From: Hesseltinella vesiculosa
Taxonomy: Eukaryota > Mucoromycota > Mucoromycetes > Mucorales > Cunninghamellaceae
Reading direction: 5' to 3'
NCBI GenBank assembly: GCA_002104935.1
Contig: MCGT01000005.1
Location: 682,001 to 746,000 of the forward strand
Length of the DNA stretch: 64,000 bases
Shown: in pieces, positions 1,250 to 10,380 of the stretch
Layout of the letters: each line of letters starts with the position of its first letter
Position numbering within the stretch: the first letter of the stretch is position 1
The notes under the pieces: model-generated
The model's database searches: none
What the model was told of the DNA's origin: nothing
The model's input: only the letters and a program-made list of their open reading frames with translations
Position numbers and translations under genes: made by a program

Positions 1250-4200
1250 ATGCTCCTTCATGTGATCTTGCTCCTGCTCAGGTTTATATCCCTTCTGCAT
1301 GGGGCGCAGTCCAATAATAGCTACAGTCATAACACAACAATTGACCTAGCGAATGACACCATCATCCAAATTCAAGCTCCTTCTCTACTGCCATCCTGCA
1401 GCATATCTCCTACAGGGATTAACCGAAAACCCCGCATCGCCGTTTTCTCTCACACCGAGGCGAATGAAGCCAGTTTTTATCATCACCCTGAGCAAGGTGC
1501 TTTAGATGCAGCTACTATTGTGGATGTGCAGATCGAATGGAATCGACATTTGTTAACTACCGGAGTTAAAATGAGCGATGACATTCGCACTGCCGTCGAT
1601 CAGGTAAGGCGTTGAAAAAAAAAAATGGCGGAGAAATTAAGGAGACTTTTTTTTTTTTTTTCGAGGGCGTGGATGGGATCATTCTGACCATACCCGACCA
1701 AACTGTGTTTGAGGCAGCTCAGTACGCCTTGGAAAAGGAGATCCCCATGATTGTGTATAATGTAGGAGAAGAATATGCAAAAAGACTTGGTGTTACTAGA
1801 GTGCTTCAGGATAATCGCAAAGGTGGTGAGCTCCTTGGAAGGCAGCTGAGTGAGCGAGGCTACAGCCGCCCTTTGCTCATCCAGTTCTCACCTGCGGATG
1901 ACATTGCCTGCCGAGACCGACTGGCCGGTATTGATGTTTATATGGATACCTCACAACCTGTCATTTTTGTCAAGGACACAAACATCTCCTTGGATCCTGC
2001 AGCCGAGATCCTGCAGCTTTATCTGAACGGTGACTACGATTCCATCATCTCGCTTACAGGATCGGTAAGAGAAGAGCCGAGTGCACTCCATCTACTTTCC
2101 AAAACTCATTGCTCTCATACGTTGTGTCCATGCTCAGACGTCGGTCGATCTGGTAAGCAACGTTGTGCACAACATGATCAGTTTCGACCCCGACTTGGAT
2201 ATCGGAGTCGGGTTTTTTGATTTGAGCGGCCGAAACATGACCAGCTTATTTCGAAGGCATGCCGACGTTTTTGCTATATCCCATCTTCCTTATTACGAGG
2301 TTGCTTTACCAGTCTTTTACATGTATTTAAGGGTAAATCTTCGGAACTATAAAAAAAGTGGGGCACCGAGTCTAACCATGTTTCCTTCCTCACAAAGCTG
2401 CTTACTGAGAGAGAGGTGTACGTCAATCAAACCATCGGCACTGGACCGACGCTTGTGACTAATGCCACCTTGGAACGCGTGCTTGATAATGAAAGGTCGT
2501 CGATGATTCCATTGAACGATAACAATGGTTACGTGGGCACGATGGGAAGTAAAGTGATCATCCTTCCCTACGATTTTTTTCTCCACTGACGAGACTGGCC
2601 ACGGCCATCCCCCCTATTTTTTTGCTTCTGCCTAGTTCCAATGTATGGGGGTGACTCTTTTAGCTCTGCCATGATGCGCGGGACACATGATTTGGCCCAG
2701 AAGCTTAACTGGACTGTGCTAAATACCGTCGAGGTTCGCTAAAAAAAACCAAACATCTGTAAAGTTATTGAAATCACTTTTTTTAAGCATGGGCCAATAG
2801 GTAAATGAAGAAATAATCGTCGACCAGCATGGCATAACTTTCCCCCCCTTTAGAGAACAAACACCAACTTCGATCTCAGCTGCAGTCGTACTCGAAGCGA
2901 GGTAATCAAAGCGAGTTGTATTTTTATGAGCTGCCTCCCCAAGGGACTGATGCATTTGTCAACGCCAAGGGGTGAGCGGCCTTATTGTCGAATCAAGTGA
3001 CCCCATGTTGGCAACTTACAGCCGTACCAATCGTACCAAGAAAATGAACATGATTCAGGTCGGCTCTTTTTTTGAAAAGGTGCACACCACCATTCCTAAT
3101 GTGGCTATCAATTTTGATGATCTCGCTGAGTCCCTAGCCCTGGCGATGATGGAAGACAGTGTCTTATTTCCTTTGTGTCTTGCAGAGCAAACCAGCCTCG
3201 AAACAGATTCTTTTTGCCAAGATTTTTATGTCGCCTACCAGCGTAAGCGTGAGCTCCAGATCTCTTACCTAAAAAACGTGCTAGCTATCGACCCCAATGG
3301 CGACCCTATGGCTCTCCCACCAGCAGTGCCATCTTTGACCCAAGTGGTGCATTATATCAATGTCACATCACCAGACACAATGGAGACACAGTATCAAAAC
3401 ATAATGGCTACTTTGAGCTCTTCGCAATATGAGCCTGATGCTTTTATTACGTTTTCTGACCACATTTTTGATATACTCAATTCGGTGAATGCAGCCCTGG
3501 ACCAAATATTTACTCCGCCGAGCTGACTTTTCTTTTCTTTTTCCTTCTTCCAGCGTGTGCTGAAAGGCTACCTAAGCAATGATACTGTCATTTATACAGC
3601 AAGTGACTTATTTGATCAGGTGCAAGCATTCATCAATGGTCGCATTCGTCGCTTTTGGTAACCATCCTACAATCAGTCCTGTTTGAAAAAAGCATTTTGT
3701 GCCTCAATTCCCATCTACAATCAGGTATCTCAATCTCTTTGCCCTTGGCTTTCTGGCTTTGTTAACAGTGCTCTTGGCCAACAAAATCTCACATCAGCCC
3801 TGGATGCACACACAACTATCATCGCCAATCGTCAACCATATTTGTGCACCAGGAAGCTTTTACAATCAATTGGCATCCGACTACTTTTGCATGGACAGCA
3901 GCCAACAACGCACGCGACTCGCCATTCAGTGCTTGCCATGCCCTTCCAACACCTATTCCGATCAATTCGATCAGCATCAATGCATTCCCTGCGGATACGG
4001 GACCTATGCAGTACCTGGATCCTCATCTTGTCTTCCGTGTGTCGAAGGCAGCGGCAACACCCACTGCCATGCTTACGAGCTCGATCAAAATGAGACCAGG
4101 CGAAAAACGATGGTGGCCATCCTGGTTCCCGTGTGCATATTTTTAACCATGGCCGTTTGTGGTTTGCTGGTTTGGCGTGTACGAAAATACCTATTGCGCC

Positions 4201-7200
4201 GACAACGCCTTCGTGATGAGAACTGGCTTCTCACGTTTGATGAGCTCATCAATGAAAAAATCAGCCACATTGACTGCGAAGAAGACACATCCGATCTCAA
4301 GAGTGAGTTGCCCCTAACCGGAAAATACGACCCCGACGAAACCACCCTGGACGGTCATGAAGAAAAAACCAGATCTGCTCTCGCTCTTGCTCCTCTGTCG
4401 GAAGGCAATATTGCTGATACAACCGAAACAAGTCAGCACGCTGCCAACGTGGAAAGCGATAACAAGTCATTGGATTTGGGCGCAGATTCCAATTTGCTGG
4501 TCATCACCTCACCGGACCTACACAGTGTTCAGCTCATGGAAGCGCCTATTTGGAAGCGATCTTTAGATGTGCACCTCTCCCAGCCTATGGTTCCCATCAC
4601 CAAGCCCACCCGGAAGAGGTATTGCTGCATGGTAGTGAATTTGTGTTGACTCGCTTTTTTTTTTTTTTTCAACAGCAATCAACAACGCGTGACAATACAG
4701 GACATGCGAGAAAGGTCTGATCTTGTGCATACCAAATGCTACAGGTAAACAAGGAAAATTTAGCATATTGAGGATGAGTTGCAGCTTGAGCCTTTCTTGT
4801 TACCCTTAGGCATAATCTTCCAGTTTTTGTAAAGCAGCTGGGCAATCGGCGTATTCGAATTGATGAAGTCATCCGGGCCGAGGCTGCCCTAATGAAAGAA
4901 ACGCGGCATCAGAACCTGGTGGAATTTGTGGGTCTGATAGTTGAGCCTCAGCGTGTATTCATCGTGGAAGGTAATACGAAAAAAACAACAAAAGTAAAGC
5001 GCAATCCACTACCCCCCTTTTTTTTCAATTGAAGAGTACTGTGCGAAAGGCTGTCTTGCTGACGTGTTAGCTGATCCAGATATTGATTTAACATGGATCT
5101 TTCGCTTCTCATTGATCAACGACCTAATCCAAGGCATGGCTTTTCTGCATCGATCCAAGTTCATTGTGCATGGCAGGTTGACCTCCAGCTCGTGTTTTAT
5201 ATCCAATAAGTGGGAGCTGAAGATCTCTGATTATGGACTTCACCGTCTTCGGCTATCACAAGTGGATCCCTGCACCCTACCACCCACCGGGAAATACAAC
5301 TATTTGGGCGTGAGTGGTGGAGGTGGCAATACCGCTAGCAACTTGTTAGACTTTGGCAGTCACTTCGCTATCAATGAAACCAACATTATCAGGTACACCA
5401 AGTCATTGCTCTGGATGGCCCCTGAATCTATCAACCGGTTGCCCTCTGGAATATTTATCTCCCGCCCCTCCAAGGCTGCTGATGTCTATAGGTACAAAAA
5501 AAAAAAATGACGGCTAGCGTCCCGACCCAGTGATACTTTTTTTTTTGTAGTGCTGGCATCGTCATGAACGAGATCATCACTCGTGAATTCCCGTACCAAT
5601 CGCTGCTGGATGAGAAAATGGACGCCGAAGGGATATTTGAATTTCTCCAGAAGAAGATACAGTATCCCTCCATGTCAAGAAAAGATGACTACGCTGAGCA
5701 TTTCAACTTTATCATTCTTGCTTGCCTACAACGCAATCCCTCTGCAAGACCCACCTTTTCTACCATCAGCGTAAGGTGTCTGATAATATGAATTGCCCTG
5801 GTGCTAAAACAACAACGTCTAATTTTTATAGAATCGCGTCAAAACCATTGACCCCAATCTATTCAGGTCGGACAATGTCGTAGATAACATGGCCATTCTT
5901 GTAAGTAGGTGTTTTTTTTCTAGAGGGGGAAGAGGGGTGTGAAATAGCATAAAAAAGTAGCCACTGCCACTCAGTTTTTTTGTAGCTTGAAAAATATGCC
6001 AACAACATGGAGAAACTGGTGAGAAAACGAACAGAAAATCTGGTGCTGAGGACCAAGGAATTGGAATCTGAACGAGCAAGAACCCAGAAACTCCTGAAAG
6101 GTAATAACTAATACCCAGTGTCAATTTACCAATACCCGGTTTTTTTTTTAAAAGATCTGTCGGCAGCAAAAGAAATCGCTGAAACAGCGGCTGTGTCAAA
6201 GCAAAATTTCCTGGCAAACATGTCCCATGGTATGGGAGAGGGAGAGAAATCAGGGATTTGGACACACTCAATCTGTGCCTCTCGAATCAATAGAAATCCG
6301 TACCCCAATGAATGCAGTGATTGGTATGTCACGCATGCTCATGGAAAGTGACCTGCCTCCAGATCTTTATGAATGTGCCGAAACCATCGAGTCATCAGGC
6401 AAGAACATAGTTGTAAAAAATCGACACCTCTAATTAGTTCTGTCATGTAGGCAACCATTTGATCGCATTGATTGATGACATTTTGGATTATTCGAAAATC
6501 GAATCTGGCCGTTTAACTCTGGAGCGCAGCAAACTCGATTTAGTATGCAAGGAAAAAAAAAAAAAGATGGCTGACTGACTCGTGATTTTTTGTGAATGTG
6601 GTTACCACCTCTAGACCTTTGTGATCGAGAGCGCAATGAAGCTCATGTCGTCTAATTACTTGAGCAAGGGCCTTGTACTGTATTACAGCATTGATCCTGA
6701 CACGCCTATCCAAGTGTATGGTGACTTGGTCCGATTGCGCCAAATCATCCTGAATTTGTAAAAACTCGGCGGGTGTAAAAGAACAGCCTTTCACTGACAA
6801 CATTTCTATCTCTCTCAAGGCTCTCTAATGCATTCAAATTCACCGAACGTGGCTCGGTGTCGGTGTGCATCAGTCTAAAAAACCCACTTTCTGAGGGTGG
6901 TCATGACGTTGTGGACGAAGATGTGGATGAGTACCAGCCAAGGTTGATGACCATGACGCCCAGTGCTGACTTGGATGTGAATCCTATGGATCTGATGTTC
7001 ATTTACTTTTCTGTCTGTGACACTGGCATCGGTATCCCCAAATCCAAATGTAAGAAGCTTTTCAAGTCATTCTCCCAAGTCGATGCATCCACCACTCGTA
7101 ATTTCGGAGGCACTGGTCTTGGATTGGCGATTAGCCGACAGCTATGTCGCATGATGGGTGGTGATATGGTAAGGAAAGAAACTTTTTTAAAGCTCCATGT

Positions 7201-8833
7201 TGCTCATCCTCTTCTTCTCTCACTTGATAAAAGTGGGTCGAGTCTGAAGAAAACCAAGGATCAACGTTTTGTTTCCGAGTCAAACTTCAAGTCCAAGAGG
7301 ACAGTCCCACCTATGGCGAGCAATATCAGCTAGTGGACTTGACAAAAGCCAATGCTAGTCCTTGGGTCATTTGCGGAAGAGCAGAGGTCCGACGGCAATG
7401 GCACGACCTGTTAGTTAACATTGGTATGAACCCTACAACCATGACCTATCAAGAGGCATTTTCAAAGCTGAAAGCCATGGACCGCTCAAAAAAGAAAAGT
7501 GTTATTACCAGCCTGGTCGTGGACATGGATCTGGAGGTGGTTGATCACGACTCCTTGTCAACTGCCTCTTTTGGCGCTCACAACAGTAACAAGCAATCCC
7601 CAACAACAACCACTCGACCCATCACCAGCCAGCTCATTCTCGAAACATTGCACCAGCACACGGATATCTTTTCGTGGCTGCCTACTCTGTGTGTCACTGA
7701 CGTGCGCCTCCGTGCAAAAAACATGCAATTTGCCCAGAACCACCCGCCTGTGTTCTCCTCTATCCCCCCCTCCTACCGTACCACACCTTGTTGCCCAGAC
7801 GCTGTAATCACGTATCCCCGGTCATCTAAAGGAAATCGTACCGATTCAGCGGCACCTGATCCGTCCTATCATTCGTCACCTGTCGAGCAGGCAATTGCCA
7901 ATCACTGTCAGCTCATCAAACCGTTTAAAAACTCAAAGCTCATTCACAGCCTCAATATTTTGTCCTCAACCGTTCAACAGCAGCAGCCTTGGCACCCAGT
8001 CACTGCGCTAAATTATGGCTATGATGATGCCTACACTCACAACAATTTACCAATGCCACTTTGTGGCATTCCCATCGTCAACTGCCCTCGCCATCGCCGA
8101 GTCACTTCTGCCTCACCTTCCTGCTATCATTCGTCCTCACCGTCCTCGACAACCCATCCTTCGGTCTTGACAACGAAGCCGACCAGCTTGATCCCCGCCG
8201 GTGTTAGAGTCCTATCACCCATCTATGCCACTGGATCGCCTGTTTTGACTGAACTCGGTGCCACCAACATCACACCTAGCCAACCAACGCCATCGTCAGC
8301 AGCTAGCGCAGGTGCCGGTTCGACATGGGATGAGCTTGCTTCTGTGCGCGCACTCCTTGTGGACGACAATCCGGTTAATCAAAAGGTGCTTAATATGATG
8401 CTCCGGCGCATGGGCTTGACATGCCAGGTGGCGCAAAATGGACGCGAAGCTTTAGAAGCCTGGATCGACTCGACCAAGAAAAACCAGCCAATCCAGCTCA
8501 TCTTCATGGACGTCTTTATGCCTGAAATGGATGGTCTGGAAGCCACAGCAAAAATACGTTCGGATACAAATGCTACTCACACGATTCCATATATTATTGC
8601 AATGACAGCATGTGTCATGGCTGGCGACAAAGAAAAATGCCTCGACGCCGGTAAGTGTTTAAAACTTAAAACGTCGGCAGGATGTTTTAACCTTATTTTA
8701 CATGATAGGTATGAATGGATATGTTAGCAAACCTGTACGAAAAGAGGAATTGGAAGCTTCCGTCCACACATTTACGCAAACCTGCTTAGCTTCCAAGACC
8801 AAAAAAGACGACGACGCCTCCGCAGCTCATTAG
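1250..8833 (+). CDS. Receptor hybrid histidine kinase with guanylyl-cyclase-receptor-like ectodomain and pseudokinase domain
   Basis: Multi-exon gene; introns inferred from GT-AG sites and frame. Order: signal peptide (1250-1310); two periplasmic-binding-protein-like lobes (about 1430-2560 with [10 protein letters not shown], and 2640-3660); a GCC2/GCC3-type Cys-rich segment with CxxC pairs (3930-4080); one membrane helix (4110-4175); a kinase-homology domain (about 4800-5780) whose catalytic loop reads VHGRL instead of HRD, with DYG for DFG, so a pseudokinase; a helix [12 protein letters not shown] as in receptor guanylyl cyclases (about 5985-6030); HisKA with [15 protein letters not shown] after splicing (6155-6560); HATPase with DTGIGIP and [10 protein letters not shown] (6610-7330); a Ser/Pro-rich linker; and a receiver (8340-8820) with [18 protein letters not shown] and SKP. 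Phosphorelay residues are present. Ligand unknown. I infer that the output is phosphotransfer to an Hpt protein. Confidence 0.88.
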
Positions 8834-9373: not shown

Positions 9374-10380
9374 TGACAATTTTAACATCGGTGTTTAAAA
9401 CCCCCCCAAAAAAGATGTCAGATCTATGAACTACCCGCGCGCAGAAAAAAACATGGCGATGGTATACAAAGGAACAGAAGGTTTCGAAAAAAAAATTGAA
9501 GGCGCAAAATATACTGTACTCTCCCAGAAAAAATCTGAAAGGAAAAATGATATACAAAAAAAAAAAAACTGTTCTAATTCACTTGGATTAGGCTTATGAA
9601 TGTTGTTTTGAGGACAGAGTGCGCTCATCTCGAAAAAAAAATTGGTCTCCAGGACACGCGTGAAAACCGTCAAAGTCTGAAAAAGCAATTGCGGGGACGG
9701 AAACCAAGTCATCGGTCCCGGGTTCGAAAAAAAACCCATATTTAGACATGGCAAGAAAAGTGTCATGTTTAAGCAAATACTTGCCTTCAAAGGGAATGAA
9801 AATAATTGTGAGCGATATATTTTTCTTTATATGGGTGATGGATTTTTTGAAAAAATACTTTCTAAAAAAGTAGCAATTATACTTTTTTAGAAAGTATATT
9901 TTCAAAAAATCCATCTCCCATATAAAGAAAAATATATCGCTCACAATTATTTAAATTACCATTGAAGGCAAGTATTTGCTTAAACATGACACTTTTCTTG
10001 GTATGTCTAAATATGGGTTTTTTTTCGAACCCGGGATGACTTGGTTTCTGTCCCCGCAATTGTTTTTTCAGACTTTGACGGTTTTCACGCGTGTCCTGGA
10101 GACCAATTTTTTTTTCGAGATGAGCGTACTCTGCCCTTAAAACAACATTCCCAAGCTTAATCCAAGTGAAATAGAGCAGTTTTTTTTTTATGTGCATCAG
10201 TTTTCCTTTAAGATTTTTTCTAGGAGAGTATTTGCGCCTCTAATTTTTTTTTCGAAATCTTCTGTATCTTTGTATACCGCTGCCGTGTTTTTTTTATTTT
10301 CTGCGCGCAGGTAGTTGACTAGATGGTTCATACGATCTAACATCAATTTTGGGTTTTAAACACCGATGTTAAAATTGTCA
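9374..10380. repeat. 1-kb imperfect palindrome (foldback or MITE-like element)
   Basis: The left end TGACAATTTTAACATCGGTG is the exact reverse complement of the right end (10361-10380). The two arms pair along almost their whole length and meet at a perfect 11-bp inverted pair (9862-9872 with 9880-9890) around a 7-base loop. Arm differences are scattered substitutions and changes in A/T run length. The open frames inside are mirror shadows of each other, so the element seems noncoding. No clear target-site duplication was seen. Confidence 0.9.

Follow-up and report, generated by a model that had tools for sequence, protein, structure and literature searches.

Receptor guanylyl cyclases (RGCs) carry an extracellular type-I periplasmic-binding-protein (PBP) fold, and a sugar-binding-protein fold also feeds bacterial PBP-linked sensor kinases such as XylFII-LytS, a group that includes Bacteroides hybrid systems such as BT1754. 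We know of no kinase-homology domain (KHD) in XylFII-LytS or BT1754-type systems, nor in Sln1-type kinases. For fungi, a comparative study reports no receptor-kinase architectures except hybrid histidine kinases (PMC6733946), a review notes that a cell-surface location is not predicted for the majority of these hybrid kinases (PMC4965123), and no fungal guanylate cyclases have been described (PMC8778642). In a 2006 survey of signalling helices (S-helices), animal receptor cyclases were the only proteins in which this helix followed a kinase domain (PMC1592074). Here we report a gene of the soil fungus Hesseltinella vesiculosa in a 64,000-nucleotide stretch of contig MCGT01000005.1 (positions 682,001 to 746,000, forward strand; hereafter the window). 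It encodes a predicted receptor of composite design: bacterial sugar-binding-like outside, with a relay like that of animal hormone receptors and a bacterial-style phosphorelay output.

The window protein shares with the RGCs GC-A (ANPR1) and GC-C one membrane helix and a dead KHD with HG in place of HR, and with GC-A also the signalling helix YANN-x-E-x-LV-xx-RT directly after the KHD. It differs from them in an ectodomain that belongs to another PBP family and is doubled, and in its output, which is HisKA-HATPase-receiver without a cyclase domain; by our reading of the sequences, the helix is also one heptad longer than in the animal cyclase P0135. In Pfam searches neither the class III cyclase catalytic domain (PF00211), also absent from the Pfam lists of the relatives P0001-P0102, nor the ANF-receptor ectodomain (PF01094) was found in the window protein, whereas the RGC-type KHD and the signalling helix are both present. 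Fungal hybrid kinases of group X (Chk1) likewise have a kinase-type domain ahead of their histidine-kinase part, but the family reported here consists of membrane receptors with a kinase domain of apparently another subfamily: the KHD model gives the kinase of the GAF-bearing protein P0115 12 bits. Chk1 is described with S_Tkc, AAA and GAF domains (PMC9069115), and the window protein, in which Pfam finds no AAA or GAF match, is set apart by that description. By their Pfam lists, P0115 and P0119 (unnamed or Deinococcota) combine kinase domain, GAF and histidine kinase in a Chk1-like arrangement. With Sln1 and group VI the window protein shares a membrane sensor and an S-helix before HisKA; these kinases carry HAMP between membrane helix and HisKA (PMC1592074), unlike the window protein, which has no HAMP match by Pfam.

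The gene reads as a single spliced frame of 6201 nt without internal stops, from the ATG at 1250 to the TAG at 8831-8833, the limits given in the preliminary description of this locus. Its 21 introns measure 52-87 nt each; intron 17 is GC-AG, and the donor of intron 5 (gttcgc) is weak. Profile searches returned the domains in the order first read from the letters, namely Peripla_BP_4 (2.4e-10), kinase (6.9e-33), HisKA (1.8e-20), HATPase_c (1.1e-25) and Response_reg (6.2e-24), each beyond its cut-off. The segment described as Cys-rich and of GCC2/3 type is there, but its PF07699 match is weak (0.0043) and falls below the cut-off. A hydropathy scan flags three segments (the signal peptide, ~636 and ~767), and a single one in 80 of 103 proteins. 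The ~636 segment goes unflagged in P0003, P0010, P0024 and P0051, aligns with orthologous sequence and is a confidently predicted helix of the second PBP fold (PBP2) in the structure model of P0022, so the one membrane helix of the preliminary description holds. A second membrane helix at aa 636-657 was thus rejected, as was the alternative of a longer intron ending near 3770: relatives retain the exon.

The same domain order recurs in other Mucoromycota. When 7999 candidates were scored against the KHD-to-HisKA part and the best 120 listed, at least 102 proteins matched at E 2e-61 or better, followed by a drop to 3e-11; by genus name, 23 of them come from Mucorales and 79 from Mortierellomycotina. 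With profiles built from the window protein, the order from PBP to receiver was found in 90 of the 102 relatives (91/103 with the window protein), and KHD-helix-HisKA in 101 (102/103), the exception being P0022, which ends in the KHD. A search for shorter proteins gave 21 matches, of which 15 are family members, including the Hesseltinella models P0133 and P0138 discussed below. The other six comprise a pair of receptor cyclases from animals, at 3e-22 and 7e-18, and four further kinases. No relative from Rhizopus, Umbelopsis, Glomeromycotina or other fungi stands among the matches listed; the searches were word-based and limited in length and the listings partial, so absence from these groups is not established. 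The Hesseltinella genome also holds a paralogue (L015, G000:C19:195500-205000) of 1980 aa and 21 exons with the same domain order and two GC-AG introns, 35% identical over 2085 alignment columns. Over the KHD, the helix and the first HisKA parts its introns lie at the places corresponding to those of the window gene and in identical phases (0,0,1,1), and the GC-AG intron inside the window HisKA has no counterpart in it.

As the preliminary description proposed, the pseudokinase is supported by sequence comparison as being of RGC type. Against the PDB, the window KHD with its helix matched GC-A (1.4e-42), GC-C (1e-22) and then CTR1 (7e-20). A six-sequence KHD profile lacking the helix ranked GC-A at 184 bits, GC-C at 138, CTR1 at 105, B-Raf at 101 and ABL1 at 95 (best 60 of 1986 matched sequences). 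A control query, the metagenomic kinase P0137 with a similar Cys-rich neighbour, ranked CTR1 and B-Raf highest, its best 60 PDB matches being free of cyclases. A 19-row maximum-likelihood tree grouped nine fungal domains with four from animal cyclases, apart from six other kinases (support 100/99), and omitting a long nematode row (18 rows) left this grouping at 99/98. Some points count against the assignment. A first tree of 29 rows, with fragmentary and very long ones, gave no resolution, and the clean result came once P0115 and P0141 had been removed and nine instead of 17 fungal rows were used; the tree panel holds no tyrosine kinases; and the P0022 model has a predicted local distance difference test (pLDDT) below 50 over much of the KHD and was not used there.

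An active protein kinase is rejected, because none of 103 aligned KHDs keeps the HRD and DFG aspartates together. The HRD aspartate position holds C, S, L, R, N or F in 24 Mucorales rows; of the 79 Mortierellomycotina rows, 46 have D there, and in this group the DFG aspartate is replaced by G (73) or S (6). The window protein has the HGR and DYG noted at the outset, and its K966, R1059 and D1077 follow the GC-A pattern except for R in place of N.

Behind the KHD, a 17-residue segment of the window helix aligns with MEQYANNLEELVEERT of GC-A, and the family shows almost no departure from the consensus E-[KR]-Y-[AG]-N-[DN]-M-E-x-L-V-x-x-R-T. The closeness to the dimerisation helix of animal receptor cyclases that had been noticed is thus real for GC-A, with an overlap of scores elsewhere: of the three animal cyclases scored, GC-A reaches 29.1 bits, but the others, with 9.4 and 7.0, stay below bacterial histidine-kinase helices, which attain up to 16.9 bits. 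Because of this overlap, a further point against the RGC-type assignment, the fungal helix is assigned by its sequence to the common S-helix type, with a distinct score for GC-A alone. Exactly 47 residues separate the RT motif and the phospho-acceptor His in 100 of the 102 proteins that could be measured, out of 104; the remaining two have 61 and 64. Other linkers vary, from 75 to 215 residues between membrane helix and KHD and from 81 to 698 between HATPase and receiver. Since the first spacing is constant and the others are not, we read the helix as continuing at fixed register into HisKA.

Two-component output follows directly, as had been described. The acceptor His of HisKA, the N, G1 and G2 boxes of HATPase and the receiver Asp lie in one chain, as expected of a hybrid histidine kinase; the His is present in 102/102 proteins, the N-box Asn in 97/99 and the receiver Asp in 89/92, the remainder being alignment gaps. 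Profile matches in the genome number one for HPt, 15 for receivers (several weak or single exons) and six for HisKA, two of which belong to this family. The two PF00211 matches of the genome (G000:C2:674369-674884 and G000:C1:1361210-1361695) lie on contigs other than that of the window.

The ectodomain departs from the preliminary description. Its binding-protein likeness was borne out and can be refined to two PBP folds: hhalign relates PBP1 to PBP2 (probability 95%, E 4e-8), and the P0022 model also has the second fold. An animal-like input stage was not recovered: the ectodomain matches PF13407/PF00532 and not PF01094, which the animal cyclases P0135 and P0136 list. Judged by sequence, PBP1 resembles actinobacterial cyclitol- and monosaccharide-binding proteins, and the ectodomain is of bacterial rather than animal type. 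The cyclitol/rhizopine-type substrate-binding proteins of this group (4ru1; NF052284) are matched end to end but differ as free-standing transport proteins; NF052284 is the best of 18950 models for PBP1, at 64 bits against a curated cut-off of 420, which indicates relationship and not membership and leaves the ligand's identity a guess. Among the best 50 rows of a fold comparison, which tests mainly PBP1, XylFII and XylFII-LytSN are present and animal receptor ectodomains are not, a result that excludes nothing. An ectodomain search outside the family found only six Mucorales proteins among 8000 scored candidates, and a genome scan with Peripla_BP_4 gave no single-exon match, even at the window locus, and so says nothing either way. 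Among actinobacterial binding-protein loci, L021, L033 and L044 have IolG-, IolE- or levoglucosan-dehydrogenase-like neighbours, which could help to name the ligand class.

How far these parts form one receptor has to be weighed against other readings. Public annotation splits the locus, which tells against a single gene: P0133 (DM01DRAFT_1190375, 368 aa) and P0138 (DM01DRAFT_1190365, 799 aa), separate models that each cover only parts of it, are 100% identical to window residues 664-1011 and 1268-2066. Ectodomain-only models exist in other genomes too (P0142-P0145), and the P0022 model stops within the KHD. Two or three genes, a receptor-like protein and a histidine kinase, are nevertheless very improbable here. 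The C-terminal end of P0133 is a translated intron after base 4970, and P0138 starts at an internal Met in the middle of the conserved signalling helix; within their residues the public models use the window splices, GC-AG intron included. No stop separates the domains in the window frame, where the junction introns measure 54-85 nt, and residues 560-800 are alignable with 13 relatives. The relatives search admitted only proteins of ~1136-3615 aa, which favours fused models, but even among the 15 shorter family members, KHD and helix are linked to HisKA, or at least to its beginning, in 12 (P0130 among them being scrambled). Relatives and paralogue, with its identical intron phases, carry the junction in one frame. 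The public models come close to the split that was to speak against the preliminary description, yet their ends lie in an intron and in the helix, and on the evidence of relatives, paralogue and splices we reject the two-gene reading; one gene at this locus is supported. The likeness to animal receptor cyclases might still be convergence, an unrelated tyrosine-kinase-like pseudokinase having met an ordinary histidine-kinase S-helix. The overlapping helix scores and a tree without tyrosine kinases leave some room for this, but we think it unlikely, given the KHD-only PDB ranking in favour of GC-A and GC-C, the 100/99 grouping, a motif HG-x-L-x-S-x-x-C common to fungal and cyclase KHDs, and the match of GC-A to the first 28 positions of the helix profile, SxNxxDN lead-in included (scored on a 37-residue GC-A piece).

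If the KHD is truly of RGC type, lateral transfer from an animal could have brought it to fungi, and outside the family the closest proteins among the word-based search matches are indeed the two animal receptor cyclases. We hold this to be quite unlikely: the module is common to two fungal subphyla, and in both small trees the fungal domains form their own clade beside, not inside, the animal ones (animal rows 91/87 and fungal rows 100/98 in the second tree, with four animal sequences sampled), which also gives no support to the derivation from an animal receptor suggested earlier. A further alternative concerns the PBP units, which might be structural or bind peptides or proteins and sense no small molecule. 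PBP2 is indeed very divergent: the 80 bacterial loci matched by PBP1 yield nothing better than E 1.7 for it, and it has Phe as counterpart of R203. In PBP1 itself, and to the disadvantage of the proposed ligand, only 34 of 79 rows retain the pocket residue Asn150 (Tyr in 42), and the alignment has a gap at the aromatic pair 76-77 in 46 of the 79. R203 and D279 are each retained in 78 of the 79 rows, however, and PBP1 aligns end to end with binding proteins of inositol-type gene clusters, so that we find this alternative doubtful.

We therefore return to the reading of one RGC-type relay in one receptor: the window protein is probably a transmembrane hybrid histidine kinase of Mucoromycota that works as follows. 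Outside the cell, PBP1 would close around a small ligand, a polyol or sugar; from its relatives and from two pocket-type residues that are conserved, the best candidates are inositol-like cyclitols and monosaccharides. Through PBP2 and the Cys-rich stalk the change would reach the single membrane helix. The dead KHD, RGC-like in its sequence, may then relay the signal allosterically and brace the dimer; it may bind ATP, since K966, E982 and D1077 are all present. The signalling helix, whose spacing is fixed, would hand a rotation or clamp motion in register to the HisKA dimer. H1323 would be autophosphorylated and the phosphate would pass to D1979, on to the HPt protein and then to response regulators, partners for which the genome has matches. 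Of the receptor-to-two-component junction first proposed, the RGC-type relay and the output through a retained helix stand and the animal-like input does not. More speculatively, KHD and signalling helix could be an old, output-neutral relay cassette, coupled to a cyclase in animals and to a histidine kinase in Mucoromycota, where the addition of a bacterial-type cyclitol-binding domain would have made surface receptors for inositol-like compounds released by plants or soil bacteria; we offer this picture tentatively and lean against it.

Full-text search (titles and abstract openings) found no description or name of the family, in agreement with the earlier statement that no named family has this order. 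Calling it a new class is acceptable insofar as no name was found, yet the class has at least 102 members in databases, unnamed or misnamed. To judge from sequence, these membrane-bound hybrid histidine kinases make up a fungal class of considerable size, with predicted function. From a survey of early diverging fungi that included Mortierella elongata, PMC5285503 describes "unprecedented" hybrid kinases that carry membrane helices; its text contains neither "guanyl" nor "protein kinase", and a figure of the paper may include family members. The family calls for amending the statements quoted above from PMC6733946, PMC4965123 and PMC1592074, while that of PMC8778642 stays true, the members resembling the receptor half of a guanylate cyclase without the cyclase. 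It also offers a natural swap for studying signal transfer by cyclase pseudokinases, with the same relay and a different enzyme, and a tentative but specific ligand proposal for the many unassigned sensors found in soil fungi and plant-associated fungi. P0009, P0015, P0022, P0038 and P0093 are named "guanylate cyclase", "gcy-13" or "RGC protein kinase" in databases and have no listed cyclase domain; these names are likely misannotations through the KHD, which the present assignment corrects.

Table 1. Features of the hybrid histidine kinase gene, in window coordinates
Feature	Position	Strand	Basis
Whole gene, 22 exons	1250..8833	+	2066 aa; public Hesseltinella vesiculosa models, alignment with relatives
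Exons 1-8	1250-1603, 1666-2064, 2138-2332, 2398-2548, 2636-2733, 2801-2901, 2977-3484, 3554-3657	+	
Exons 9-15	3725-4618, 4676-4744, 4810-4970, 5035-5491, 5551-5770, 5832-5900, 5986-6100	+	
Exons 16-22	6155-6229, 6294-6398, 6451-6542, 6615-6757, 6820-7168, 7234-8650, 8709-8833	+	
Predicted signal peptide, aa 1-19	1250..1306	+	N-terminal hydrophobic stretch, hydropathy scan
PBP1, cyclitol/monosaccharide-binding-protein type, aa 59-345	1424..2484	+	PF13407; NF052284 64 bits end to end
Candidate PBP1 pocket residues R203, D279	1918-1920, 2219-2221	+	Conservation, 79 rows
PBP2, divergent second PBP fold, aa 358-660	2521..3794	+	hhalign; model of P0022
Cys-rich segment, aa 673-743	3831..4043	+	Weak Ephrin_rec_like/NCD3G match
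Transmembrane helix, aa 764-788	4104..4178	+	Hydropathy scan; P0022 model
Kinase-homology (pseudokinase) domain, aa 951-1240	4722..5840	+	K966; R1059 replaces HRD Asp; D1077 of DYG
Signalling helix, aa 1250-1300	5868..6159	+	Family and GC-A alignment, helix profile
HisKA/DHp, aa 1307-1382; predicted phospho-acceptor H1323 at 6226-6228	6178..6521	+	Pfam, alignment
HATPase_c, aa 1395-1574	6630..7296	+	Pfam, alignment
Receiver, aa 1921-2045; predicted phospho-acceptor D1979 at 8509-8511	8335..8767	+	Pfam, alignment

Directly upstream of the gene, a short reading frame (361-966, + strand) has two Trp-rich repeats, which we take to resemble Myb/SANT domains. A short frame also adjoins the paralogue, presumably resembling a secreted barwin/expansin-like protein. 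Just downstream of the window gene lies an inverted repeat of ~1 kb, a fold-back element (9374-10380) whose arms are piecewise 86-100% complementary. One arm recurs in the genome at 81 or more places, mostly with 92-97% identity and often as facing pairs, and on these grounds the element probably belongs to a young repeat family.

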